From Emticicia sp. C21 (GTDB lineage: Bacteria > Bacteroidota > Bacteroidia > Cytophagales > Spirosomataceae): a DNA stretch of 64,000 bases. Location: positions 62,001 to 126,000 of the forward strand of contig NZ_QVMT01000007.1 of the NCBI RefSeq assembly GCF_003418935.1. The letters are read 5' to 3'. The notes below the pieces were generated by a model, which saw nothing but the letters and a program-made list of their open reading frames with translations, was not told where the DNA came from and searched no databases. A program made the position numbers and the translations under genes. The stretch's first letter is position 1. Each line of letters begins with the position of its first letter. Positions 30,310 to 44,214 of the stretch are shown here, one piece after another.

Positions 30310-30341
30310 TTTGGATAATATCAGAATCTGCGTTTACTTTG
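30310..30341 (+). promoter_or_regulatory. Candidate promoter for the DUF1361-dgkA operon
   Basis: TTTG at 30310-30313 and TACTTTG at 30335-30341 are 21 bp apart. The -7 element is one base short of TAnnTTTG. Transcription would start about 20 bases before the ATG at 30369. Confidence 0.4.
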
Positions 30342-30368
30342 CATTACAAAGTTCTTTTTAAATAAATC

Positions 30369-31064: not shown

Positions 31065-31398
31065 TTTTAAGTTTGCCTTTCAGGGTATAGGGGTGCTGAT
31101 GCAGGAAAATAACGCCAGATTTCACCTGTTTGCTACAGTTGTGGTAATTCTGACAGGTTTGCTGGTAGGTTTAAGCAGTGCTGAGTGGTCGGTCACATGT
31201 ATTATAATCGGATTGGTGTGGGTAGCAGAGGCATTCAATACTGCTTTAGAGAAATTATGTGACTTTGTGACGACGGAACAACACCCATTAATCGGAAAAG
31301 TAAAAGATTTATCAGCCGCCGCAGTTTTAATTATTTCCTGCGTTGCGGTAATTATCGGAATTATTATATTTTTGCCTAAAATATTAGCTAATCTATGA
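31039..31398 (+). CDS. dgkA: Diacylglycerol kinase family protein (DgkA / undecaprenol kinase type)
   Basis: 119 residues with three membrane helices. The catalytic signature VAEAFNTALEKLCDFV (E-x-x-NTAxE-x-x-D) is complete, as is KDLSAAAVL in the third helix. In Gram-positive and many other bacteria this family phosphorylates undecaprenol to recycle the lipid carrier; in E. coli it acts on diacylglycerol. The gene overlaps DUF1361 by 26 bp, and its stop overlaps the ATG of the next gene (ATGA), so translation is coupled along the operon. Confidence 0.92.
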   Translation: MNVPKMLRSFKFAFQGIGVLMQENNARFHLFATVVVILTGLLVGLSSAEWSVTCIIIGLVWVAEAFNTALEKLCDFVTTEQHPLIGKVKDLSAAAVLIISCVAVIIGIIIFLPKILANL

Positions 31399-32006
31399 AC
31401 GAACACCTTGAACAACTCAAAGAGATCCGCTCGATGATGGAACGCTCCTCTAAGTTCCTATCACTTAGCGGGCTGTCAGGTATTTCGGCAGGTATTTGTG
31501 CTTTAGCAGGTGCTTGGTATGCACATCAGAAAATTCATGTGGATGCACTTTATCATTTATTTGACCCACAAGTAAGAGAAGAAATAGTTCCTCTATTAGT
31601 GATAGATGCACTGATAGTACTTATTTCTGCTTTAGTAACGGGAGCTTTCTTTACCATACGCAGAGCCAGAAAAAAAGGATTTAAAATGTGGAATTCAACT
31701 TCAAAGCGTTTGTTGGTTAGTATGCTGATACCACTTCTGGCCGGAGGTGCTTTCTGTATAGCAATGCTTTATCATGGCTTTTTCTGGTTATGTTTCCCGG
31801 CCACGTTAATTTTTTATGGTATTGCTTTAGTCAATGCCAGTAGATATACCGTTCACGACACATTTTATTTAGGTATCAGCGAAATCATTATAGGAATAAT
31901 AGCCCTATTTTTGGCGCAGTGGAATCTTAATTTCTGGGCATTAGGTTTTGGTGTGCTTCATATCATTTATGGAGCAGTGGTGTATTTTAGGTACGAAACA
32001 AAATAG
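31395..32006 (+). CDS. Integral membrane protein, partner of the winged-helix regulator
   Basis: 203 residues. A short helical start (EQLKEIRSMMERSSKFLSLSG) is followed by five or six membrane helices. Proteins with this opening regularly lie just before a MarR/ArsR-like winged-helix gene in Bacteroidota, as here (39 bp gap). Function unknown; it may hold or modulate the regulator at the membrane, which is inference. Confidence 0.65.
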   Translation: MNEHLEQLKEIRSMMERSSKFLSLSGLSGISAGICALAGAWYAHQKIHVDALYHLFDPQVREEIVPLLVIDALIVLISALVTGAFFTIRRARKKGFKMWNSTSKRLLVSMLIPLLAGGAFCIAMLYHGFFWLCFPATLIFYGIALVNASRYTVHDTFYLGISEIIIGIIALFLAQWNLNFWALGFGVLHIIYGAVVYFRYETK

Positions 32007-32045: not shown

Positions 32046-32339
32046 ATGAATTTATTACAGAATTTTAATAAAGCATTTGAAAGCAAGGCCCGATTAGGTA
32101 TTATGTCGGTGCTGATGGTCAATGATGAACTTTCTTTCAATAATATGAAAGAACTATTGTCGCTGACCGATGGTAATCTGGCTACACATTTGAGGGCATT
32201 GGAAGAAGCAAATTATATATCTTTTAAGAAAGAGTTTATCGGTCGTAAACCAAGCACAGTATATTCAGTAACGGACGAGGGGAAACAGGCTTTTAATGAG
32301 CATTTAAATGAATTAGAAAAATTCATTCGAGGTGCTTGA
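32046..32339 (+). CDS. Winged-helix transcriptional regulator (HTH_34 / ArsR-MarR-like)
   Basis: 97 residues, a single winged helix. The core is SKARLGIMSVLMVNDELSFN, then NMKELLSLTDGNLATHLRAL (recognition helix) and the wing KKEFIGRKPSTVYSVTDEG. Such regulators are usually repressors of their own locus. Its stop codon lies within the -33 box of the exosortase N promoter, so it is a good candidate regulator of that unit. Confidence 0.88.
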   Translation: MNLLQNFNKAFESKARLGIMSVLMVNDELSFNNMKELLSLTDGNLATHLRALEEANYISFKKEFIGRKPSTVYSVTDEGKQAFNEHLNELEKFIRGA

Positions 32340-32366
32340 TTATAATTTTTTTATCTTTTAACTTTG
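32336..32366 (+). promoter_or_regulatory. Promoter of the exosortase N unit
   Basis: TTG at 32336-32338 and TAACTTTG at 32359-32366 (full TAnnTTTG match) are 20 bp apart. Transcription would start near 32373, 25 bases before the ATG at 32398. Confidence 0.6.
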
Positions 32367-32397
32367 AAAAACAAAGTACTTTTAAATAACCAAGATT

Positions 32398-33936
32398 ATG
32401 TCTTCTACTAACCTCAAAGTTTTAGCACTTGCATTACTGACTATTCTCTTTAATTATTTTTTCTGGGAGGAAAAAGTAGGAATTAACCTACCACTATTTA
32501 GTAGTTTATTAATTGGTTCACTTATATATTCTGACAAAATAAAGCTTGATTCTCTAGCAATAAAAGTTGCCTTAGGCCTCACAATCTTTACCGGAATTTT
32601 GGTGGTAATACACAATTCTGTGATAAGTGTATTTACTCACTTTTTTTCTTTCATTGTATTAGTTGGTTTTTTGCATCGCCCTCAACTGACAAGTGTAAGT
32701 AGTGCCATGTTTCAGTTTGGTGTAAATGCCCTGATGAGTACATTTGAACCCATTATTTTATTGGCTAGTACAAACAATCATCGCAACAGAAATACCAGCA
32801 AGTTCAATTGGGTTTTTAGAATTACAAAGCTATTAATTATACCAGTAGTGGTCTTCTTTATTTTTCTCTCAATTTTTAAGGCTGCTAATCCAATTTTCAG
32901 CAATATGCTGGACACAACCTTTTCAGGATTTTTTCAGGCATTCAATCAATTCTTTTACTCCCTCTCCCTTCCACATCTGATATTTATTCTTTTTGGGGCA
33001 TTTATCATTATTTGTGTTTTAAAAAACTGGGAAAGAGCGAAAGGTATTCACAAACTTTTTCAATTTCAAAGTCCAAAGATTTTACAATCCCCCGAAAATC
33101 TCAATGAGACTAATGCAAAAAACGAGTATAAAACAGCTTTAATACTTATTTGCTCTGTAAACGTATTGCTCCTTATCATCAATATTATCGATATACGGTT
33201 CATCTGGTTTAATGTAGGTGGAGATTTGAAATCTGCAGTGGAATTATCACAACTAGTACATAATGGTACTTACCTGTTAATCTTCAGTATCCTTCTCTCA
33301 ATTGCCATCTTGCTTTTCTATTTCCGGAAAGACCTGAACTTCCTATCAGATAATAAATGGCTTATTACTGCATCGTATATCTGGATTATCCAGAATGGTA
33401 TTCTGGTTATTTCAGTTCTATTACGCAACTACGAGTATATTATCAATTACGGATTGACACATAAACGTATTGGGGTTTTCTTCTTTCTATTGCTTACTTC
33501 TGCCGGATTAGTGCTGATGTGGCTGAAAATCAAAAAGCTGTATTCATTCCTCCACTTGTTTAAACAAGCAGGTTGGGTATTCTACATAGCATTTATAAGT
33601 CTGGCAATTTTCGATTGGGACAGTATGATTGCCCGATATAATCTAAGCACACAGAGTGCTGCTAATATTGATTACAAATATTTATATGACCTCTCTAATA
33701 GAACACTTCCTATTCTTTACGAAAATAAAGAGAAAATAATAGAACGAATTAAGCAGAAGCCTGCTATGGATCATGAAAAGGAAATTAATAAGCTAAACAA
33801 TAAGATAAAAAGATACTTATCCGAGCAACAAGGTTATACCTGGGTTTCATGGGATTTATCCAATAGCAAAGCTGTCGACTATTTTAAAGATAAGAAATTA
33901 GAGGATTACACTCCTCCTGTGACAAAAAACCAATAA
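32398..33936 (+). CDS. DUF4153/DUF4173-type polytopic membrane protein of the exosortase N cluster
   Basis: 512 residues, about twelve membrane helices, with a soluble C-terminal tail of about 100 residues (from KYLYDLSNRTLPILYENKEKI). The layout and the helices FRITKLLIIPVVVFFIFLSIF and YIWIIQNGILVISVLLRNYEYI fit the DUF4153/DUF4173 group. First gene of the unit; the VIT gene follows after 19 bp. In other Bacteroidota this kind of protein accompanies exosortase N (known association); its job is unknown. Confidence 0.75.
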   Translation: MSSTNLKVLALALLTILFNYFFWEEKVGINLPLFSSLLIGSLIYSDKIKLDSLAIKVALGLTIFTGILVVIHNSVISVFTHFFSFIVLVGFLHRPQLTSVSSAMFQFGVNALMSTFEPIILLASTNNHRNRNTSKFNWVFRITKLLIIPVVVFFIFLSIFKAANPIFSNMLDTTFSGFFQAFNQFFYSLSLPHLIFILFGAFIIICVLKNWERAKGIHKLFQFQSPKILQSPENLNETNAKNEYKTALILICSVNVLLLIINIIDIRFIWFNVGGDLKSAVELSQLVHNGTYLLIFSILLSIAILLFYFRKDLNFLSDNKWLITASYIWIIQNGILVISVLLRNYEYIINYGLTHKRIGVFFFLLLTSAGLVLMWLKIKKLYSFLHLFKQAGWVFYIAFISLAIFDWDSMIARYNLSTQSAANIDYKYLYDLSNRTLPILYENKEKIIERIKQKPAMDHEKEINKLNNKIKRYLSEQQGYTWVSWDLSNSKAVDYFKDKKLEDYTPPVTKNQ

Positions 33937-33955
33937 ATCTTCGATTACACATCTT

Positions 33956-36472
33956 ATGGAAACAATTAAAGCGCCGGGCAATCGGGCAGAGGAACTTATT
34001 GCCCAACCAAAAAAACATTGGTATGATTATGTCCCCACCATTGAATATTTTTTTGGACTGCTGTTACTTCTCTTATCGTTATCTGTTCTCATCTGGACAC
34101 ATGAAAAACGAGAGTTTGCAATGGCTTTTGTTACACAGATTTTTGCTGTAGCTTATACTGTTTTCTTATTGTTTACTGGCAAAATGAAAGTAATCTGGAA
34201 AGAACAACCAAAAGAATATCTGGCTTATCGTTTACTCGCCTGGCAGATATGGATTGTTAGTTGCTTTACATTAAATCGGGTGGTTGAGGTATTTCAGGAG
34301 TCAACCGATTGGCTTTCAGTAGCGCTTGTTCTTTCTTGTTTGACTAATATCCTGTTTTATTGGGAGCCTCAAATGCAAAAAAGGTTTAAAGAGATATTAT
34401 ATATCTTTTGTGCTACCTCAACCGTTCTATGGGCTTACTTTACACTTTATACTGTCTGGTTATATCCCGTTAGCTTTATACTTATTCTTTTCTTAGGGCT
34501 TGGGTTTCATTCATTCGTTCCTCTTTTTTTATTGATTGCTCACGTCAAACTGCTTAAAAGAGTCTGGCATTCACACAACAATGCTATCCTGTTTGGAATC
34601 CTCACACCTATTGCCTTCACCATCTTTTTTGTCGTTCAATGGAATATCACGCAAAACAAAATTCAGGAGGCTTATCAGAAGTCTTTTACATCGACAACCG
34701 ATGAGGTTCCAAACTGGGTAGCAGTAGCCCAGAAAGTAGAAAATAACTGGATCACAGAGCGTATCTTAAAAGGAGATTTACTGTATCAGAATTTTGATAA
34801 CAGATTCAGTTTTATGCCAACAATAGGCAATTTTGAAAGATTGCAACATGACCCTTTGGTGATGACGGCCTCACTTTTCAGTCAAAAGCTGGCTATAGAG
34901 AACGATGAGAAAATTAAAATATTAGGGGCTATACAGGATATAAGCCACGAAACCCAGGTAAGACTCTGGTCGGGCGATCAATTGGTAACACAAGATATTA
35001 TTACTCAAGCCAGAATCTATCCTGAATATAGAATGGCTTATACAGAGAAAACACTCACTATTGCCAATACTGCTCAAAATTCATGGCAAACACAAGAAGC
35101 CATCTATACATTTTATCTACCTGAAGGTTCGGTAGCAACCTCTCTTTCACTCTGGATAAATGGTAAAGAAGAAAAAGGCTACCTGACTACCAAATCGAAA
35201 GCTCAAGCGGCCTATACAACTATTGTTGGGGTTGAAAGCCGGGACCCTTCTGTTGTCCATTGGCAAGAGGGCAATACTTTAAGTGTACGTGTCTTCCCTT
35301 GCACATCACAAGAAACAAGACGGGTGAAAATAGGTATTACCTCTCCGCTTAAAGAAAATAATGGGGAGTTAATTTATGAGAACATTTATTTTAAAGGTCC
35401 GGAGGCCAGTAGCGCAAAAGAAATCGTAAAAATAGATTTTTCTCAACCCGTAGAAAACCTGTCTAATCCCTGGAATACTACCTCAACGGGTACAATTGAA
35501 GATAGTGGAAGCTACAAACCTTACTGGAAATTAAGTTTTAGTACGCCACAACTTTCAAAAAAGCCATTCAGCTTTCAGGGTAAAAGCTATACATTATCAT
35601 CATTGGATATTCAGAAAGAAGCCTTTCAGCCTGAAGCTATTTACTTAGATGTCAATGGAGAGTGGAGTAAATCAGAATTTGATGACCTTTACAAGACTTT
35701 CAAAAATGGTTCTTTATTAGTCTGGAAAGATGGTTTCATTCAACTAAATGAACACAATAAAGATATGCTGTTTTATGAATTAAAAGAGAATAATTTCAGC
35801 CTTTTTCCCCTATACCGGATTCCCACAACAAGTGCAAAATGTTTATTGATTACCAAAGGAACACTTAAAGCCCCTAACTTGAAAGATCTGGAAGGCAGTA
35901 ACTTTTCAGCCTCTATCAAAAATACGAATACAGACAAAGGACCTATTCAAATCGCATCTTTGAATGAAACGTTGTCGCCCTATTTAAAAACTTTAAAAGA
36001 GCTAGGCGTGATTGCTGTTAATCAGACTACTATCGAGCAATTGAAAAAAGGAGAAATCTACAAGATTCTCCCCTCTCCTACCCAAACCTCTGTCAATATT
36101 GAAAATGCCAATATGCAGATTAAGGAGATATCTGCAACAAACGAAAAGACGGATGCGCCCGACCATCTGCTTCGATTGTACGCTTACAACCATATCATGC
36201 AGCAAATCGGGGCAAACTATTTCAAACAAGACTATCTTTCTGACACGCTGATTCAGGAGGCTGCTACGGCTAATATCGTTACCCCCATTTCAAGCCTGAT
36301 TGTATTAGAAGCGAAGGAAGATTATGAGCGTTTTGATATAAAGAAAAGTGAGAATAGTCTTGAAAATGCCACACTGAAATCATCCGGCTCAGTACCGGAG
36401 CCACATGAATGGCTATTGATTATTACGTTTGCCTGCGTAGTCCTTTATTTCCTCTTAAAGCGGTTCTTATAA
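33956..36472 (+). CDS. XrtN-system VIT-domain protein with a PEP-type C-terminal sorting signal
   Basis: 838 residues. Residues about 20-225 hold some six membrane helices. A VIT (inter-alpha-trypsin inhibitor) domain spans about 355-465, with the hallmark TTKSKAQAAYTTIVGVESRD and VHWQEGNTLSVRVFP. The C terminus is a textbook tripartite sorting tag: V813-P814-E815-P816-H817-E818-W819, a hydrophobic helix (820-834), and a basic end (K835-R836). The exosortase that should cut here is encoded 1 bp downstream. The protein is thus the likely, perhaps only, substrate of XrtN. No von Willebrand A domain with MIDAS is seen after the VIT domain, as often found elsewhere. Function unknown. Confidence 0.88.
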   Translation: METIKAPGNRAEELIAQPKKHWYDYVPTIEYFFGLLLLLLSLSVLIWTHEKREFAMAFVTQIFAVAYTVFLLFTGKMKVIWKEQPKEYLAYRLLAWQIWIVSCFTLNRVVEVFQESTDWLSVALVLSCLTNILFYWEPQMQKRFKEILYIFCATSTVLWAYFTLYTVWLYPVSFILILFLGLGFHSFVPLFLLIAHVKLLKRVWHSHNNAILFGILTPIAFTIFFVVQWNITQNKIQEAYQKSFTSTTDEVPNWVAVAQKVENNWITERILKGDLLYQNFDNRFSFMPTIGNFERLQHDPLVMTASLFSQKLAIENDEKIKILGAIQDISHETQVRLWSGDQLVTQDIITQARIYPEYRMAYTEKTLTIANTAQNSWQTQEAIYTFYLPEGSVATSLSLWINGKEEKGYLTTKSKAQAAYTTIVGVESRDPSVVHWQEGNTLSVRVFPCTSQETRRVKIGITSPLKENNGELIYENIYFKGPEASSAKEIVKIDFSQPVENLSNPWNTTSTGTIEDSGSYKPYWKLSFSTPQLSKKPFSFQGKSYTLSSLDIQKEAFQPEAIYLDVNGEWSKSEFDDLYKTFKNGSLLVWKDGFIQLNEHNKDMLFYELKENNFSLFPLYRIPTTSAKCLLITKGTLKAPNLKDLEGSNFSASIKNTNTDKGPIQIASLNETLSPYLKTLKELGVIAVNQTTIEQLKKGEIYKILPSPTQTSVNIENANMQIKEISATNEKTDAPDHLLRLYAYNHIMQQIGANYFKQDYLSDTLIQEAATANIVTPISSLIVLEAKEDYERFDIKKSENSLENATLKSSGSVPEPHEWLLIITFACVVLYFLLKRFL

Positions 36473-36473
36473 A

Positions 36474-37772
36474 ATGTTTAGAGCTATTATTAGTCCAAAA
36501 GCAGGTTTCCTTATAGCTTATATAGCCTTATTTATCTGTATAAGCTATAAGGGGTATTTTTTAGGTGATACTATTTTTCTATTAGGGCTGGGCATCCTGA
36601 CGTATGTTTTGAAAACGGGTGCATTAGGTAGCAAAAGTACCCGCTTTCTTATCCCGACTTTATTCCTGGCGATTGTATCTTTCTACGTGCCTACTTTTTC
36701 AATCAGGTATCTGTTATTGATAGTAGCTTTATTATTTTGTTTTGAGACGCTATTTGGAAAGTTGAGTGAGCTGGCATTTCTTGTGCTTTTGCTTATGTCT
36801 CCCCTTTTCAGGTATGTATCTGAAAGTTTTACTTTTCCGATACGTATATGGTTGAGCGAAATTAGCGGACAGATACTTGCATTTCTTCATTTACCTGTAG
36901 AAATCAATGGTAATCTGATTATACTAAGCGGTAACGATTTTTTAGTCGATGCCGCTTGCACAGGTCTGCAAATGCTTGGACTGTCATTTTTATTGTGCAT
37001 CTTTTTATTAGCCTACTATCAGGACGTTTATCAGAGGCGAATCGCATTTGGCTGGCAGTTATTGACTTTAACTATCACTTTTTTATTCAATATTTTCAGC
37101 AACCTATGCAGAATCCTGCTCCTGATTATTTTCAGAATTACACCGGATAATTTCTTACATGACCTATTAGGCATTTGCTGTTTGCTGGTGTATGTCTGGC
37201 TACCTATGGTCTGGATTACCAAACAAATTGCTATAAGACAAACTGTTAAACCAAAAGAGCTAAAAGTTGAGGAAACAAGGCTAAGTCAATGGCTCGTTAA
37301 TAGCTTATTCCTATCAGTTACAGCCTATTTAGTTCTATCATTCGCAGGTGCAACAACAGCCCAAGAGCTAACATCAGCAGAGAAAAAAGGAAAACCCAGT
37401 TATCAGATAAAGATCTTAAAGACCGGCATCACCCAACTAAAAAGTGATAAAGCCCTAATATATCTCAAACCGATTCCTGACTTTTATTCAGGTGAACATA
37501 GCCCCATCTTCTGTTGGAAAGGGAGCGGCTATGCCTTTAAAAATATTAAAGAAGAAGTAGTACAAAGTTATCCTATTTATACAGGTGTATTAATCAACAA
37601 AAAGGATAAACTCTACACCGCCTGGTGGTTTACGAATGGGGAAATTATCACAAACAGCCAGTTAGATTGGCGATGGAGAGTGTTGAAAGGGGAACATAAA
37701 TTTGAACTTATTAATGTAACAGCAAATTCAGAGCATGGATTAAAGAAAGTAATTGCAGAGTGGCTAAAATAG
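36474..37772 (+). CDS. xrtN: Exosortase N (transpeptidase-like membrane protease)
   Basis: 432 residues. About eight helices form the exosortase core, with the three active-site residues in place: Cys162 in DAACTGLQML, Arg213 in NLCRILLL, His229 in DNFLHDLLGI. After residue 280 a soluble domain follows (LSFAGATTAQEL, then YQIKILKTGITQLK and AWWFTNGEI), comparable to the EpsI-like domain fused to some exosortases. Exosortases cut PEP-type tags and are thought to join the protein to a sugar or lipid anchor. The gene begins 1 bp after the VIT protein and ends just before a strong terminator. Confidence 0.92.
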   Translation: MFRAIISPKAGFLIAYIALFICISYKGYFLGDTIFLLGLGILTYVLKTGALGSKSTRFLIPTLFLAIVSFYVPTFSIRYLLLIVALLFCFETLFGKLSELAFLVLLLMSPLFRYVSESFTFPIRIWLSEISGQILAFLHLPVEINGNLIILSGNDFLVDAACTGLQMLGLSFLLCIFLLAYYQDVYQRRIAFGWQLLTLTITFLFNIFSNLCRILLLIIFRITPDNFLHDLLGICCLLVYVWLPMVWITKQIAIRQTVKPKELKVEETRLSQWLVNSLFLSVTAYLVLSFAGATTAQELTSAEKKGKPSYQIKILKTGITQLKSDKALIYLKPIPDFYSGEHSPIFCWKGSGYAFKNIKEEVVQSYPIYTGVLINKKDKLYTAWWFTNGEIITNSQLDWRWRVLKGEHKFELINVTANSEHGLKKVIAEWLK

Positions 37773-37793
37773 TTTGTTTAGGGGTTAGCAAGC

Positions 37794-37829
37794 AAAATCC
37801 ATATAGTTTTATATGGGTTTTCTTTTTTA
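37794..37829 (+). terminator. Terminator of the exosortase N unit
   Basis: A 12-bp stem (AAAATCCATATA with TATATGGGTTTT, one T-G pair) and loop GTTT, followed by CTTTTTTA. It begins 22 bp after the xrtN stop. Confidence 0.85.
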
Positions 37830-37894: not shown

Positions 37895-38614
37895 CTATTT
37901 ACGAGAGATTTTCGCTAATAATTTCAGGATTTCAAGGTAAAGCCAGATAATCGTTACCATTAATCCAAAAGCCGAATACCACTCCATATATTTAGGTGCA
38001 CGCATGGCTGCACCTTGCTCTATCAGATGAAAATCGATAATCAGGTTCATCGCTGCAATAGTTACTACAACCAACGAGAAAATAATACCCACAGTACCTC
38101 CCTGATGAATATAAGGCATACTGATACCAAACATTCCTAATATCCATGTCAATAAATAAACCAGGAAAATAGCGCCTGTAGCGGCTGTTACACCAAAGAT
38201 AAATTGTTGGGTAGCTTGTAATATTCTGGTTTTATACAAAAACCACATAATCAATACCACTCCGAAAGTCAAGCCTGCTGCCATGAAGGCTAAATCCTGA
38301 AAAATAGCCGAGATAGCACCGATAGCCAAGCCTTCTAATAGGGCATAAGTAGGTGCTAATTGTGGAGCCCACTCTTTTTTAAATGCCAGTACGATAGCGC
38401 ACAACAACCCTCCGATACAACCTGCCGGAATAAGCATGGGTGCAATGCCCCATCCTTCTAATAAGCCGATCCATGATACAGCCGAAGAGGCCAAAAGGAT
38501 AAATAATAAAATACCAACTTTAGTTAGGGTACTTTGTACATTCATCACCTCGCTATTGTCTTGAGCGAAGTCGATTTTGGTAAATGTTTTTTCCGAAAAT
38601 GCCGGATTAGCCAT
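37895..38614 (-). CDS. Bax inhibitor-1 / YccA family membrane protein
   Basis: 239 residues with seven helices. The N-terminal part (NPAFSEKTFTKIDFAQ) and FGVTAATGAIFLVYLLTWILG identify the Bacteroidota branch of the family; the C-terminal WYSAFGLMVTIIWLYLEILKLL carries the conserved Glu. In bacteria YccA binds FtsH and slows it, and other homologues behave as calcium-leak channels; either is possible. Transcribed alone. Confidence 0.92.
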   Translation of the reverse strand: MANPAFSEKTFTKIDFAQDNSEVMNVQSTLTKVGILLFILLASSAVSWIGLLEGWGIAPMLIPAGCIGGLLCAIVLAFKKEWAPQLAPTYALLEGLAIGAISAIFQDLAFMAAGLTFGVVLIMWFLYKTRILQATQQFIFGVTAATGAIFLVYLLTWILGMFGISMPYIHQGGTVGIIFSLVVVTIAAMNLIIDFHLIEQGAAMRAPKYMEWYSAFGLMVTIIWLYLEILKLLAKISRK

Positions 38615-38754: not shown

Positions 38755-41700
38755 TTATTCTACTGTAACAGTTCCACCACCGTTATAGCTATGGTATTCA
38801 CCATTATACATGGCATCTGCAGCCACTGGACCAATAATGAATTTGCCACGAGAAACTACTCTGACTAAATAATAGAAACTACGCTCGGTGCCATCTGCTG
38901 TGGTATAGAAGTTAATTCTATCGTCTCTTATATCGAAATGTTGTGGTGAAGAGGCATTCTTTATCCAGGTCATTTCACGGTCTTCGTTCAGGCGAGGATT
39001 TTCTATTTCAAAAGCTGCCGGTAACATATCCGTTACCACTACGTTTTCTATTGGGGTCGTTCCACTGATACTTACTTTCACCACCACCAACTGATTTTGC
39101 TTGAATTGATTCGCTGAAAGCGGTTGACCAGTACGGCTAAAGAACTGACGGCGCACTTTCAGGAAGTTGTCTTCTTCTACATATTTTCCGGTGGCACTTA
39201 ACCCCTCCTGTTGTGCAAAATAGTATAAGGCACCTTTACCTTTGGCATTAATGGAAACTGTTTTTCCAACCAGACCCTTATCTAAAGATAAATCAGCACC
39301 CGTAAAATTAGCCAGTTGTTTATTATCTGCCAATAAAGTGGCCGTTACATTAGATTCGCCATTGCGTTTAGCAATTTTACCCAAAGCCAGGAAGCTAAAT
39401 ACTGATTCCTGTGTTGACAAATAGCGGGTATTCTTAATTGCCTGAGATAGTACTCTCGCCATTTTTGGAATCTGCAAATTTTGAGGGTCAGACTCTACTA
39501 AACTATTTAATGAAATTGCCAGATTACGAATAGGTGAAGAGAAACTACCGCCTGTTTCTTTAGTGGTACTTTCCATCAGATAATCTTTAGGAATCAATTG
39601 TTTCGCACTGCTTTCATCGCCAATCTGTGCAAAGCCTGACCCTAGCATATAGCGTGTATCAATCGTTAACAGATTCTCATTCGATTTATAATAGTTCATC
39701 ACTGGTTGATTAGCCTTACCTGCCAATGCTAATGTATAAAGCGAATATATCATACCACGTTTGGCAATTGTACGGGTATTGTATGTGCCGTTTTCAACAT
39801 AAATATATTCTAACTCGGTAGTCTCCTGCATTGAGGTTTTAGTGGTCAGATAATCCAACATCCGGTTCAGAATATTCTCGTTTATCTCATAATCTGCTTT
39901 CTTTGCTTCTAGCAGGAAGTGAGCAGCAAAGATGGTTCCCCACCAGCTTTCGTAATCACTGCCCGGCCAATAGCTCAATCCACCACTGGCTAGTTGCATA
40001 CTCTCAATTTTACGGATAGCTGCCTGCACATTAAACTGTGGGTTCCAGTCATTATCACCTTTCAGACCTATTGATTTCGATTTTGTAGCGATAGTTTTGG
40101 TGAAATCAGCAAAGTACAATTGTGGAAATGCTTTAGCAACTGTTTGCTCTATACAACCATGTGGATAGCCCAGCAAGTAATCTAATTCTTTGGCAAACTG
40201 TACCATTGGTGAGCGACTCACCAATAAACTTGCCTGTGCAGAACCCGGCATACAATCATTGGCTAAACTAACTGAGGCAGTTTTGCCTGCCAGTACATCG
40301 CCCGAAAATGAACTTTTCAAAAGCGAAGTGCTTGGCCTGATTGTCAGGTCAATACTTTCTGAGAATTTTTCTTTGAAGCCATTCACGGTTACTGCAATGC
40401 TTCCCGTACCAATAGCGGCCGGAGCCTTTACAGTAAATAAGGTTCTCACTTCTTTCCCTGCCGGAATACTAAGAGATTGATTATTCTGGCTTTGGAGAGT
40501 CAAGCCTCCTGTCAGATTCACCGCTGTACTCACAGTCGTATTGCTCTTGGTAGTATTTGTAATCGTAACCGGAATAATCACCTCATCATTCGGACTCAAG
40601 AATCTTGGTGCACCTGTGCTAATCACAATCGGGTCCTTTACTTTCATATTGGTATTAGCCGAACCAAACGCCTCATCGTTATAGGCAACAGCCATAATTC
40701 TTAAATCACCAGAAAACTGCGGTATATCAAATTCGAACTGCGCTTCCCCACTTGAATTGGTTTTCAGAATACCACTCCAGATAGCCACCAGTTTAGTACG
40801 GCCATTGCTTAACGGATTTACTCTCTTCTCCAGATTATATCCATCCCCCCCGATACTACTATTGCTAGATAGTGACAATTCAGGGAACAAGAATTGATAC
40901 AAATCGTGACTGCTGACTTCCAATGCCTGTTTCTGATAGAAATAATTATAAATATCCGGTGTTTTGAAATTTTTGATTTGTAGTATACCTTCATCTACCA
41001 CTGCCACCGTCAATTCTGTATTAGATTTACTCTTGACTGTAATTTTCTGTTTACGTTTTGAACGAGACTCAGTGGCAGCTACAATCTGGACTGGGAGCAA
41101 ATTACTTGGTTTCTCCACTTTCATAGGAGCAAACCCATGTGCTACTGTCAGTGGCATATCAATCCCTTTCATCGGACGAATCAAAGTAGCCGTTACATAT
41201 ACATTCGGCAACATATCTTCTGTTACTTTCACCTCTACCTCTGCCGATTTTTTATCGGTTTCAATATAAAAATGTTCTAATACTTTGTTTCTTTCAACAG
41301 TCACCAACATTTTTCCGGCAAATGGTGTTTTCATCAGAATCTTAGCATTATCGCCCACCTGATACTTTTCTTTATCCATTTCCATTAATACTTGTCCCTC
41401 ATTGCTTACTTCAAAAGAGCTATTCGAAGTACTACCATAACCGTAAGCATAGAAACCTTGGGTGGCATAACTTTCAGCATCAGGTTTATAGATACGGATT
41501 TCATACTCGCCTGATACTTGTGGAATAAACTTAATGCTTGCTTTACCGCCTGAAAAATCTACTTCTTTGGTCTGCGCTAATTTTTCCTGACGTTTCGAAT
41601 TATAGCGGATAACACCATCCGTTTTTTCAACCACAGTCTGGTATTCTATGCGGTAAATATCTATCGTTGCGCGTGTTTTATTCTGTATTTTACCCTCAGT

Positions 41701-44214
41701 AGTAAGTGCCACCAATGGGATAGCTATTGGTACGTGTGTGCCTACATAATAATCGGGTAAGCCAATACCGAAGAATGTTTCCTGCGTAAATACATCAAAA
41801 CGTTTCATACGGTTGAGCGGGCGACCTGTTTCATCAAAAACAGTCACAAAGACTTTTCCCTCCAACACACCCATATCTTTATAAGTAGCAGGAATCTCAA
41901 AGCTCTGTGCCCCTATTCCGTTTTCATTGGTTACACCCTGACGTACATCATTATTAAATTTGGTATCGTTCTGAATATCAAAGCTATAATTCTCAAAGCC
42001 TTTGGCTGAAAATACCTTTCTTTTCAGACTGAAATCCATTTCATAATTACGATTGGAAGCCGGAGGACCAAACAAATTAGTGGCTATGGCCTGAATTGAC
42101 ACTGTTTCACCTGAGCGATAGGTATCCTTTGCTGATAAATCTACCTTAATGCGGTCAGGCATAAATTCCTCCACACTGATAGATTTTGAAGTGAGTAATA
42201 CATCATTACCGTTATAGACTTCAATCGAATAATTACCTGTAACAGCCGCACGGTCGAGCGGAATAGATGTATCAACAGCCCCTTGTCCATTGGTATTTTT
42301 CAGGAATGATTTAAACTCCCGTCCATTGGGCAATAGAATCTTAATTTTTAACGGAATTTCCTCTGCCGAAGTCCATTTACTGTCTCTTACTACCGTATTG
42401 AAATGAACCGTTTCACCCGGACGATAAATATCACGGTCACCATACACAAAAGCATCATAACCACTGGCATTGGCTCTTTTGCCCTCTACCTCAAAGCGTG
42501 AGGTTTCTACCTGCGTATCTTCCAGAAGCATATAATTAAAATCTTCTTCCGTACGAGCGGTAACCATTGCCACACTAAAATTCGGGGCTTTTTCCAACAA
42601 TTTCTCAAAAACTACTACGCCCTTGCTATCGGTTTTCAGGGTTTCAATGATCTGGTTATTCGAACTAATCAGATTTACTTCTACATTGCCTATTGCCTTT
42701 GCATCAATTATCGAGTTCACAAATACCATTACCTCATTGCCACTGTCTGATTTCTTGGCAATAATACCTATATCTGAAACCGATACCAGTTTACTGGCAT
42801 TGAAATAATATTCATCGTTTGAGTTAAGATTAACCAGATATACCCCTCTCAATTTGCTTTGGTCAGGCAGAGGCATATTTAAAACCGATGTGCCATGAAT
42901 TTTCGGCAAATTGCCTGTTTCTATGGTTCTATCCAGAATCACATCGCTATAAAATCCCTGACCATCATCATTATAGGTAAAGCCGTTACGGGTACTGCTT
43001 TCACCATCATAATAGTAGTCTTCGTAGCGATTGTTGCGTAAATAAGACAAGATATTGTTCTCATATACCTTCAACACCTTTACTTTTACTTTAGGAATAT
43101 TAGTAACCCTGACACCTATATTACGGCTACCTTTAGAGGAGAGATATAAACCTTTTTTATTCGTAAATTCAAGGCTGGCAGGCATTTCGCCAAAGAATAA
43201 GTCTTTAGTATAATTTCCATCCAGTTTTGCGCCTAATGTGCCGCGAAGATTATCTTTGATAGTAAGTGTATATGCTTCCGTTGTACTGAAATAGCCTTTA
43301 ATAATAAAACCGTTTTCAGTCGCTTCAGTTTGGGTTTCTACCGCAGGCTCAATAGTGTATGAATCTTTCAGTTTACCATCAGTAATTTGCTGGGTAGTAA
43401 TCACTTTTACAAATCCTTGGTTACCCTCGAAACCTGTTTCTACATCAACTACTTTTACATCATAAGGTGAGGGTACTACGCCATCTAATGTATAGGTTTG
43501 TTGAGTGCTTGCCCCCCCACCTGACATCTTCAAACCTTTTTCTATGTTTGCAGTTAAAGGCGTTTCATCTTTTGAGGATAGAGCATCATTTAATGCCAAT
43601 AATATCTTATTATCATTACCTGTATTATTGATAATGTAATTTTTATCAGCATTCTCAACTTTTAGTTTTAACAGACTGCTCAAATCATTTTTCTGAACAG
43701 GATAATTAAAGTCAATCTTCACTTTAGCAGTTGGCTTGCCATCTGCTCCTTTCATCCAGTAACTTTCTATCTTTTGTGGTTGAAGAAATGGTGTATGAAA
43801 TTCCACCGTTTCATTATCCAGGCTATAGTTTTTAGTAGCAGATTTATTTAATAAAGGCTTGCTTAAAACAGCTTTATAAGCAGTGGCAGGTTTGAAGCCA
43901 TTGCTTGGCGAAAACACCAGTTCGTTCTTGGCTGTCCACTTGAATACCCCTTCCACTTTAGGTTCTATCTTCACATATTCCACAGCTTCCCAATTATCCA
44001 GATCCTTATCTCCTACCAGGTCTTTATTGAAGGTAAAAACAAGGTTCTGGGCCTGCTGAATCTCGTCTTCGAAATTGCGGGCAGAGATGCCTACTTCGTT
44101 CAATTTTGAGCAACTGCTGATGTAAATTGTTGTACTGATGGTAAAAAAAGAAAGGATAAAAATATTCAACAATCCTAAAGATTTAGGCTTGACACTGAAT
44201 AGCGGAGATTCCAT
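38755..44214 (-). CDS. Alpha-2-macroglobulin family lipoprotein with an intact thioester motif
   Basis: 1819 residues. An N-terminal hydrophobic segment ends in YISSC35, a lipobox for a lipid anchor. Macroglobulin MG2-type domains (DIYRPGETVHFNTVVRD) follow, then the A2M domain (KLVAIWSGILKTNSSGEAQF), and the thioester domain with Cys1354-Ile-Glu-Gln1357 in GYPHGCIEQ. In bacteria such proteins trap proteases that enter the periplasm, linking to them through the thioester, often with the repair synthase PbpC. Here no pbpC is near. The length fits the large bacterial type (YfhM-like is 1650). The single gene has its own terminator; a TATTTTTG element (44286-44293, minus strand) may be the promoter. 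Confidence 0.93.
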   Translation of the reverse strand: MESPLFSVKPKSLGLLNIFILSFFTISTTIYISSCSKLNEVGISARNFEDEIQQAQNLVFTFNKDLVGDKDLDNWEAVEYVKIEPKVEGVFKWTAKNELVFSPSNGFKPATAYKAVLSKPLLNKSATKNYSLDNETVEFHTPFLQPQKIESYWMKGADGKPTAKVKIDFNYPVQKNDLSSLLKLKVENADKNYIINNTGNDNKILLALNDALSSKDETPLTANIEKGLKMSGGGASTQQTYTLDGVVPSPYDVKVVDVETGFEGNQGFVKVITTQQITDGKLKDSYTIEPAVETQTEATENGFIIKGYFSTTEAYTLTIKDNLRGTLGAKLDGNYTKDLFFGEMPASLEFTNKKGLYLSSKGSRNIGVRVTNIPKVKVKVLKVYENNILSYLRNNRYEDYYYDGESSTRNGFTYNDDGQGFYSDVILDRTIETGNLPKIHGTSVLNMPLPDQSKLRGVYLVNLNSNDEYYFNASKLVSVSDIGIIAKKSDSGNEVMVFVNSIIDAKAIGNVEVNLISSNNQIIETLKTDSKGVVVFEKLLEKAPNFSVAMVTARTEEDFNYMLLEDTQVETSRFEVEGKRANASGYDAFVYGDRDIYRPGETVHFNTVVRDSKWTSAEEIPLKIKILLPNGREFKSFLKNTNGQGAVDTSIPLDRAAVTGNYSIEVYNGNDVLLTSKSISVEEFMPDRIKVDLSAKDTYRSGETVSIQAIATNLFGPPASNRNYEMDFSLKRKVFSAKGFENYSFDIQNDTKFNNDVRQGVTNENGIGAQSFEIPATYKDMGVLEGKVFVTVFDETGRPLNRMKRFDVFTQETFFGIGLPDYYVGTHVPIAIPLVALTTEGKIQNKTRATIDIYRIEYQTVVEKTDGVIRYNSKRQEKLAQTKEVDFSGGKASIKFIPQVSGEYEIRIYKPDAESYATQGFYAYGYGSTSNSSFEVSNEGQVLMEMDKEKYQVGDNAKILMKTPFAGKMLVTVERNKVLEHFYIETDKKSAEVEVKVTEDMLPNVYVTATLIRPMKGIDMPLTVAHGFAPMKVEKPSNLLPVQIVAATESRSKRKQKITVKSKSNTELTVAVVDEGILQIKNFKTPDIYNYFYQKQALEVSSHDLYQFLFPELSLSSNSSIGGDGYNLEKRVNPLSNGRTKLVAIWSGILKTNSSGEAQFEFDIPQFSGDLRIMAVAYNDEAFGSANTNMKVKDPIVISTGAPRFLSPNDEVIIPVTITNTTKSNTTVSTAVNLTGGLTLQSQNNQSLSIPAGKEVRTLFTVKAPAAIGTGSIAVTVNGFKEKFSESIDLTIRPSTSLLKSSFSGDVLAGKTASVSLANDCMPGSAQASLLVSRSPMVQFAKELDYLLGYPHGCIEQTVAKAFPQLYFADFTKTIATKSKSIGLKGDNDWNPQFNVQAAIRKIESMQLASGGLSYWPGSDYESWWGTIFAAHFLLEAKKADYEINENILNRMLDYLTTKTSMQETTELEYIYVENGTYNTRTIAKRGMIYSLYTLALAGKANQPVMNYYKSNENLLTIDTRYMLGSGFAQIGDESSAKQLIPKDYLMESTTKETGGSFSSPIRNLAISLNSLVESDPQNLQIPKMARVLSQAIKNTRYLSTQESVFSFLALGKIAKRNGESNVTATLLADNKQLANFTGADLSLDKGLVGKTVSINAKGKGALYYFAQQEGLSATGKYVEEDNFLKVRRQFFSRTGQPLSANQFKQNQLVVVKVSISGTTPIENVVVTDMLPAAFEIENPRLNEDREMTWIKNASSPQHFDIRDDRINFYTTADGTERSFYYLVRVVSRGKFIIGPVAADAMYNGEYHSYNGGGTVTVE

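Follow-up and report, generated by a model that had tools for sequence, protein, structure and literature searches.

Two adjoining genes in a 64,000-nucleotide window of the Emticicia sp. C21 genome (contig NZ_QVMT01000007.1; the genome is 6.64 Mb in 33 contigs and 99.9% complete) encode a VIT-domain protein with a C-terminal sorting tag and an exosortase, exosortase N (XrtN). The explanation that we favor overall, as probable rather than firm, is that they form a one-substrate exosortase pair in an envelope module controlled by a regulator of the HTH_34 family, and that XrtN cuts, and perhaps conjugates, the C terminus of the VIT protein. The pairing itself is already catalogued in NCBIfam. 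The VIT protein (838 amino acids, 33956–36472) scored 918.3 bits against TIGR04477 (cut-off 250), and the exosortase (432 amino acids, 36474–37772) scored 349.5 bits against TIGR04476 (cut-off 200), which bears out the exosortase N identity proposed by a first-pass annotation of this DNA. Coordinates are those of the window, and all features from the first operator copy to the terminator lie on the forward strand. A literature search, which reached few subscription papers, found no publication on exosortase N or XrtN and no description of the palindrome and HTH_34 regulon described below; in the literature searched, the operator and its shared regulon thus appear not to have been described previously.

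Genome-wide searches agreed with the annotation's proposal of one apparent substrate. The genome encodes a single exosortase by both TIGR04476 and PF09721. VPEP-coding matches numbered 65, and after repeats were collapsed 64 distinct contexts, including that of the window, were examined for a stop codon 15–45 codons after VPEP, an open frame of at least 30 codons ahead of it and a strongly hydrophobic stretch; the full layout was found in the window VIT protein only. Tags departing from V-P-E-P were covered by a profile search alone. This tag profile, built from 17 sequences and searched in 20 XrtN-positive genomes, gave exactly one strong match per genome in 20 of 20 (best E ≤2.7e-10), with the next-best match in any of them at E 0.125, and it revealed no second tagged protein. 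In one of these genomes (G421), the sole strong match sits in a broken VIT gene (L192:6868-7931), in which most of the ectodomain is gone, the tag is legible and the triad of the accompanying xrtN is kept; this state reflects either substrate decay ahead of enzyme decay or an assembly fault.

The enzyme and substrate genes also travel together. In a phylum sample of 395 genomes, with both families called at their curated cut-offs, TIGR04476 and TIGR04477 were above cut-off in the identical five genomes, in line with the dedicated pairing that had been proposed. XrtN adjoins the VIT gene in 38 of 43 VIT loci (37 detected by tblastn, and L059 by profile, where the contig ends inside xrtN), and at three others (L067, L071 and L072) a contig end cuts or interrupts the VIT gene itself. 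Distances among VIT proteins and among XrtN proteins were correlated (r 0.88 over 42 sequences), a value reached in 0 of 2000 permutations. We regard it as all but certain that VIT and XrtN are a dedicated pair. Some members of the family stand apart. Locus L062 encodes an intact-tag VIT protein (L062:2-2752) with no adjoining XrtN, its next gene being a bacterial sugar transferase (PF02397) of the type that initiates surface polysaccharides; L050, in a Chlorobi-labelled bin, encodes a VIT protein with an intact tag (L050:7981-10215) and no XrtN in the remaining 676 bp; and L074 carries a VIT-XrtN pair in a Leptospiraceae-labelled bin, outside Bacteroidota, where contamination is possible.

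The residues Cys162, Arg213 and His229 of XrtN are invariant in 42 of 42 sequences (the VIT and XrtN alignments include some near-duplicate rows), and the loss of this triad in relatives, named by the annotation as counter-evidence, was not seen. The VIT protein ends in VPEPHEW followed by a helix and KR, as the annotation had read it; the tag comprises SVPEPHEW, the hydrophobic helix and the KR tail (residues 812–838; 36389–36469), and of the 48 VIT rows aligned, 44 extend over this region, with V-P-E-P-x-E-W invariant in all of them. In the C-terminal domain of XrtN (approximately residues 300–432), H342, P344 and C347 are also invariant. This domain of the window protein had no direct match to the EpsI models PF11984 and TIGR02914 at E up to 1. 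A 196-amino-acid exosortase-associated protein from another genome (locus L031), however, links the two, matching PF11984 (DUF3485) at 3.5e-7, the C-terminal part of an XrtN model at 1.2e-6 and, weakly, TIGR02914 at 5e-4. Because this protein matches both, XrtN probably carries a fused C-terminal domain of the EpsI type. The structure model of XrtN had a pLDDT (predicted local distance difference test score) of 85; a Foldseek search with it against the PDB returned nothing at E ≤0.001, and a profile search of PDB sequences found no solved relative.

An AlphaFold2 model of the VIT protein, made from a 37-sequence alignment (mean pLDDT 84), starts with seven long helices at the N terminus; the VIT beta domain and a vWA-like one come next, then a linker and a final helix (residues 816–837). 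The linker is poorly ordered, with pLDDT <50 at residues 803–805 and 808–814, and the seven N-terminal helices of the model are predicted to be transmembrane. By Foldseek, the model matched inter-alpha-inhibitor heavy chain 1 (6fpy, 6fpz) with an E of 5e-15 over 580 columns at 11–12% identity, and a profile search picked up heavy chain H4 weakly, in two collinear stretches (E 0.094).

The pair lies downstream of a palindrome, ACTTTGNNNNNCAAAGTNCTTT (ACTTTG-N5-CAAAGT-N-CTTT), which we consider an operator. Two exact copies occur in the window versus 0.15 expected: one at 30336–30357, 33 bp 5′ of the DUF1361 gene and at the head of the HTH_34 operon, and one at 32361–32382, in the gap before DUF4153-VIT-XrtN. 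The whole 6.64-Mb genome contains five exact sites and two one-mismatch sites, compared with three sites at ≤1 mismatch for a reversed control, and sites were present in five of six genomes searched. After 3 partial and 2 duplicate loci had been set aside, 58 VIT loci were scored at ≤1 mismatch; 44 have the operator near the VIT start, versus 0 of 58 for the reversed control. The window and L032 are scored as negative here, their site preceding DUF4153, and the loci, some on short contigs and several from one genus, are not independent. A site is near VIT in 26 of the 33 loci where HTH_34 was not found. The operator is also present in all 40 fetched loci that pair HTH_34 with the membrane protein MP203 (reversed control, 0 of 40). 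Within a limit of 400 bp, 37 of these loci have a site ahead of the operon head, 31 have one following HTH_34 and 28 have both. Among 110 sites selected at ≤1 mismatch, the second spacer base, which played no part in the selection, is A in 91%. A shared operator regulon is very probable, and the HTH_34 protein is a likely binder of the operator.

The left half of the palindrome overlaps the −7 box of a promoter match (TTG-N20-TAnnTTTG, of the −33/−7 type) at 32336–32366. Sigma-A promoters of Flavobacterium carry TAnnTTTG between −12 and −5 (PMC9723704), and because of the overlap a protein bound at the palindrome would be expected to block initiation. The promoter that the annotation had placed here stands in part: the match exists and its core, with the palindrome at ≤1 mismatch, is kept in all six same-genus loci printed. 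A sigma-70 scan did not list it, and the motif taken alone is weak evidence, because its loose form occurs 11 times on the forward strand of the window versus ∼4.9 expected.

The operon headed by the first operator copy encodes a DUF1361 membrane protein (PF07099, 30369–31064), a DAGK-family kinase (PF01219, 31039–31398), MP203, a conserved polytopic membrane protein without a Pfam family (31395–32006), and the HTH_34 winged-helix regulator (PF13601, 32046–32339), our candidate for the operator-binding protein. MP203 matched nothing in Pfam over cut-off. It was sought in 198 genomes of the phylum and found in 68, and of these loci 40 were fetched and their neighbors assigned to families at E 1e-5. 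HTH_34 accompanies MP203 in 40 of 40, CreD is present in 14 and DUF4153 in 8, and neither VIT nor XrtN occurs in any. HTH_34/MP203 is thus a long-established cassette of Bacteroidota with a varying downstream gene. A second pair of a membrane protein and HTH_34 is found in the Emticicia sp. C21 genome itself (L142:2455-3394, contig C4), before a small open reading frame of 180 amino acids.

This cassette changes the boundaries of the unit. The annotation had described a self-contained three-gene unit with a promoter and a terminator of its own. The three reading frames, with gaps of 19 bp (DUF4153-VIT) and 1 bp (VIT-XrtN), are borne out by their coordinates, and the intrinsic terminator at 37794–37829 is a real hairpin (−12.4 kcal/mol, z −4.8, equalled by 0 of 200 shuffles), despite being missed by a consensus scan. 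The first gene (32398–33936), named DUF4153/4173, encodes a 512-amino-acid membrane protein that matches DUF4153 (PF13687) at 3e-43, and the Pfam scan listed no DUF4173 match for it. Self-containment did not hold, since DUF4153 belongs to the upstream HTH_34 operon and the palindrome is common to HTH_34-linked genes across the phylum. We rejected DUF4153 as a member of the XrtN unit: it stays beside MP203-HTH_34 in same-genus genomes without VIT-XrtN. In all five such genomes the DUF1361-DAGK-MP203-HTH_34 operon is kept, and the slot behind HTH_34 holds DUF4153 in four (G465, G440, G419 and G453) and CreD in G476. A tblastn search with the window DUF4153 found it in 1 of 43 VIT loci, a count that distant DUF4153 proteins could escape. 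Among 15 loci fetched from the family (L178 and L179 repeat L032 and L034), VIT lies behind HTH_34 without DUF4153 in nine, among them G421 with its broken gene; in two (L178 and L183) DUF4153 separates HTH_34 from VIT; and HTH_34 was not found in four. L032 is the E. agri locus, whose VIT protein is 80% identical; judged by it, the same-genus genome G465 is apparently an Emticicia.

The VIT-XrtN pair is above cut-off in 15 of 101 family genomes and, among the 7 genomes listed for the same genus, in 2. In G465, which has the window's order DUF1361-DAGK-MP203-HTH_34-DUF4153-BaxI-A2M without VIT-XrtN, the sequence before the shared terminator resembles the last xrtN codons. An end-anchored comparison was matched by 0 of 20000 shuffles and none of 3780 other 31-base VIT-XrtN pieces matched as well, while in free local alignment the score was reached in 5 of 2000 shuffles; the evidence thus depends on the anchored position. 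No clear xrtN remnant was found in G440, G419, G453 or G476. Because of this remnant of the xrtN 3′ end, the pair was probably once present in G465 and then lost. The flanking genes that keep their place in G465 encode, in the window, a BaxI-family membrane protein (37895–38614) and, adjoining it on the reverse strand, a protein of 1819 amino acids (38755–44214), which we take to be bacterial alpha-2-macroglobulin-like, with what is presumably a thioester-type motif, GCIEQ.

Elsewhere in the Emticicia sp. C21 genome, exact sites head a Wzm/Wzt-type polysaccharide cluster, a serine hydrolase gene of the PF00144 family and a DUF2809 gene, in addition to both window operons. The hydrolase gene is preceded by two tandem sites, and the remaining one-mismatch site is followed by a gene for a DoxX-like protein. 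The polysaccharide cluster opens with an SLBB/Poly_export gene and contains an ABC-2 permease, an ABC ATPase, a DegT aminotransferase and five glycosyltransferases in the ten reading frames scanned. Its export genes recur in identical order behind an operator in a genome of another genus (G190). Sites in G465 precede reading frames resembling the SLBB, DUF2809 and hydrolase genes, of which the family scan covered the DUF2809 one. The operator also reaches a second exosortase system. In G289, MP203 and HTH_34 are followed by a one-mismatch operator at the start of exosortase K (XrtK); MSEP-CTERM and another site come next, and CreD lies farther along. Of the 24 loci retrieved through TIGR04477-profile matches, 7 contain XrtK-MSEP, and the operator precedes xrtK in two of these (L254, and L294 with an exact site). 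At L254 a second operator (L254:3862-4344) precedes a 151-amino-acid gene without an NCBIfam match, behind MSEP-CTERM. In two other genera (L263 and L271) the operator precedes mutually similar membrane proteins of 417 and at least 349 amino acids as read, at L271 after a small reading frame.

We propose the following mechanism. HTH_34 would repress by covering the promoter until a membrane signal, passed through MP203, relieved repression, much as in SdpR/SdpI. The VIT protein would insert by its seven N-terminal helices with the heavy-chain-like ectodomain facing the periplasm, while the tag helix, KR facing inward, staples its other end. Cys162 of XrtN would then cut at VPEP and remove this helix; we consider cleavage of the tag highly likely. 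Because the N-terminal helices would stay in the inner membrane, cutting the tag cannot by itself release the protein, and the most economical purpose of the cut, we infer, is to free or conjugate the C terminus of the ectodomain. Members of the exosortase superfamily have been suggested to act as transpeptidases. By analogy, the freed C terminus may be transferred to a lipid or glycan that offers an amine or hydroxyl, tying the VIT protein covalently to envelope material. Whether conjugation is preferred over plain cleavage is a close call that falls slightly short of even, and surface polysaccharide as the acceptor is a speculative choice, attractive but unproven, suggested by analogy from the heavy-chain likeness and the polysaccharide cluster. 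Equally speculative is a broader model, in which one HTH_34/MP203 envelope switch of Bacteroidota with ACTTTGNNNNNCAAAGTNCTTT runs interchangeable outputs (CreD, DUF4153, ABC polysaccharide operons and the two unlike exosortase pairs, XrtN-VIT and XrtK-MSEP) and the exosortase substrates, inner-membrane proteins with a heavy-chain-like ectodomain, are joined covalently and C-terminally to the co-regulated envelope glycan.

Several observations weigh against the proposed module and mechanism. A crude hydropathy scan flags four N-terminal segments of the VIT protein, not seven. The heavy-chain match has modest TM-scores (0.31–0.32 by query, 0.39–0.41 by target) at ∼10 Å root-mean-square deviation. 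A functional metal ion-dependent adhesion site (MIDAS) in the vWA part is not supported: heavy chain 1 binds Mg through Asp298, Ser300, Ser302 and Asp403 (PMC7170535), and in the proximal motif examined the D-x-S-x-S residues are not conserved, as D565 is present in 47 of 48 sequences but position 567 is N in 45 of 48 and 569 varies among S, A and E. Two of the 43 VIT loci have no neighboring XrtN, L050 with 676 bp of contig left and L062 with 975 bp; the sugar transferase that follows VIT at L062 we count in favor of our reading. No site within two mismatches was found at 13 of the 58 VIT loci, a count that includes the window and L032 with their site ahead of DUF4153, and G109, an XrtN-positive genome, has none genome-wide at ≤1 mismatch and none near VIT (L193). 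Operators are absent from five of the seven XrtK loci. Because G190 keeps the operator-headed polysaccharide cluster without XrtN, the cluster does not need the enzyme. Finally, the candidacy of HTH_34 as the binder is drawn from co-location.

The closest competitor is that XrtN acts as a switch by cleavage only, clipping the C-terminal helix so that the ectodomain swings free or changes partner with nothing attached. The helical N terminus, which would presumably keep the protein anchored in the inner membrane regardless of the tag, and the gene maps, which show no acceptor-making gene common to all XrtN loci, make this a serious possibility, one we rate somewhat below conjugation. If the cut were constitutive, however, a tagless protein would do the same job, and a dedicated enzyme that keeps its Cys/Arg/His without exception and has an EpsI-like domain fused to it suggests that more than cutting takes place. 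We find it improbable that the ectodomain is instead displayed on the surface, with a second protease splitting it from the helices and XrtN routing it outward as is thought for PEP-CTERM systems: exosortases are tied to exopolysaccharide clusters and XrtF to biofilm (PMC10936215), and the operator also heads a Wzm/Wzt-type cluster, but the XrtK substrate family shares the layout of helices and VIT.

Two further alternatives concern the operator and the pair's position. Chance landing of VIT-XrtN behind the HTH_34 operon as a mobile insertion would account for its patchy presence in the family and the genus, but is quite unlikely given the xrtN-end remnant in G465, where the pair was probably lost, and the operator that accompanies VIT where no HTH_34 is near. 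Less likely again is that the palindrome serves sigma-A genes as an extension of their promoters and is not an operator. Its left half does overlap the TAnnTTTG −7 box (PMC9723704), but the 6.64-Mb genome has only five exact copies, the spacer base is A in the great majority of sites, and all 17 TIGR04477-profile loci without XrtK also lack the palindrome at ≤2 mismatches. The HTH_34-controlled one-substrate pair is the reading that we retain. Under it, a short, highly specific operator connects one enzyme and one substrate with a candidate regulator as well as with genes for the envelope and polysaccharides, which would make this a simple system for studying exosortase action on a C terminus; the catalogued VIT-XrtN system gains a testable role, and the operator points to a phylum-wide regulon.

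Comparison with known systems places these results. The NCBIfam entries (TIGR04476/TIGR04477), whose cut-offs the adjoining window genes exceed, name the pair; the operator, the HTH_34 regulon, the EpsI-like domain, the one-substrate count and the heavy-chain-like ectodomain are added here and were not found in print. The nearest relative is XrtK (TIGR04287) with MSEP-CTERM (TIGR04286), which shares N-terminal helices and VIT in the substrate, a neighboring pair and, in 2 of 7 loci, the operator; TIGR04286 matches the window VIT protein at 4.6e-27 (94 bits, under its cut-off of 150). It differs in its smaller enzyme (166 amino acids in L254), in having the enzyme gene before the substrate gene and in a tag that is different by name. 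CreD (PF06123), which belongs to a different protein family, is likewise an envelope membrane protein that occurs with MP203-HTH_34, in some of its 14 loci directly behind the operator, and its envelope role has been shown in Stenotrophomonas (PMC4689548). Exosortase F of Flavobacterium johnsoniae (Fjoh_1448) is, like XrtN, a Bacteroidota exosortase with a neighbor gene, and both it and Fjoh_1449 were needed for colonization in a screen, with a link to biofilm (PMC10936215). It belongs to another exosortase family, and the available portion of that paper, which links exosortases to exopolysaccharide clusters, names no VIT partner. The marine proteobacterial sortase target TIGR03788, which the window VIT protein matches weakly (1.4e-4, far under cut-off), is also a VIT protein with a dedicated C-terminal transpeptidase. 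Its members pair with a sortase, not an exosortase, and are not known to be polytopic. The heavy chains of animals resemble the VIT ectodomain in fold, and the C termini of heavy chains 1 and 2 are ester-linked to N-acetylgalactosamine of chondroitin sulfate (PMC7170535); heavy chain 1 differs from the VIT protein in the low identity and in MIDAS residues that the latter has not kept. If a glycan is indeed the acceptor, its joining to the VIT protein would parallel the ester bond by which animal heavy chains are attached C-terminally to hyaluronan and chondroitin sulfate.

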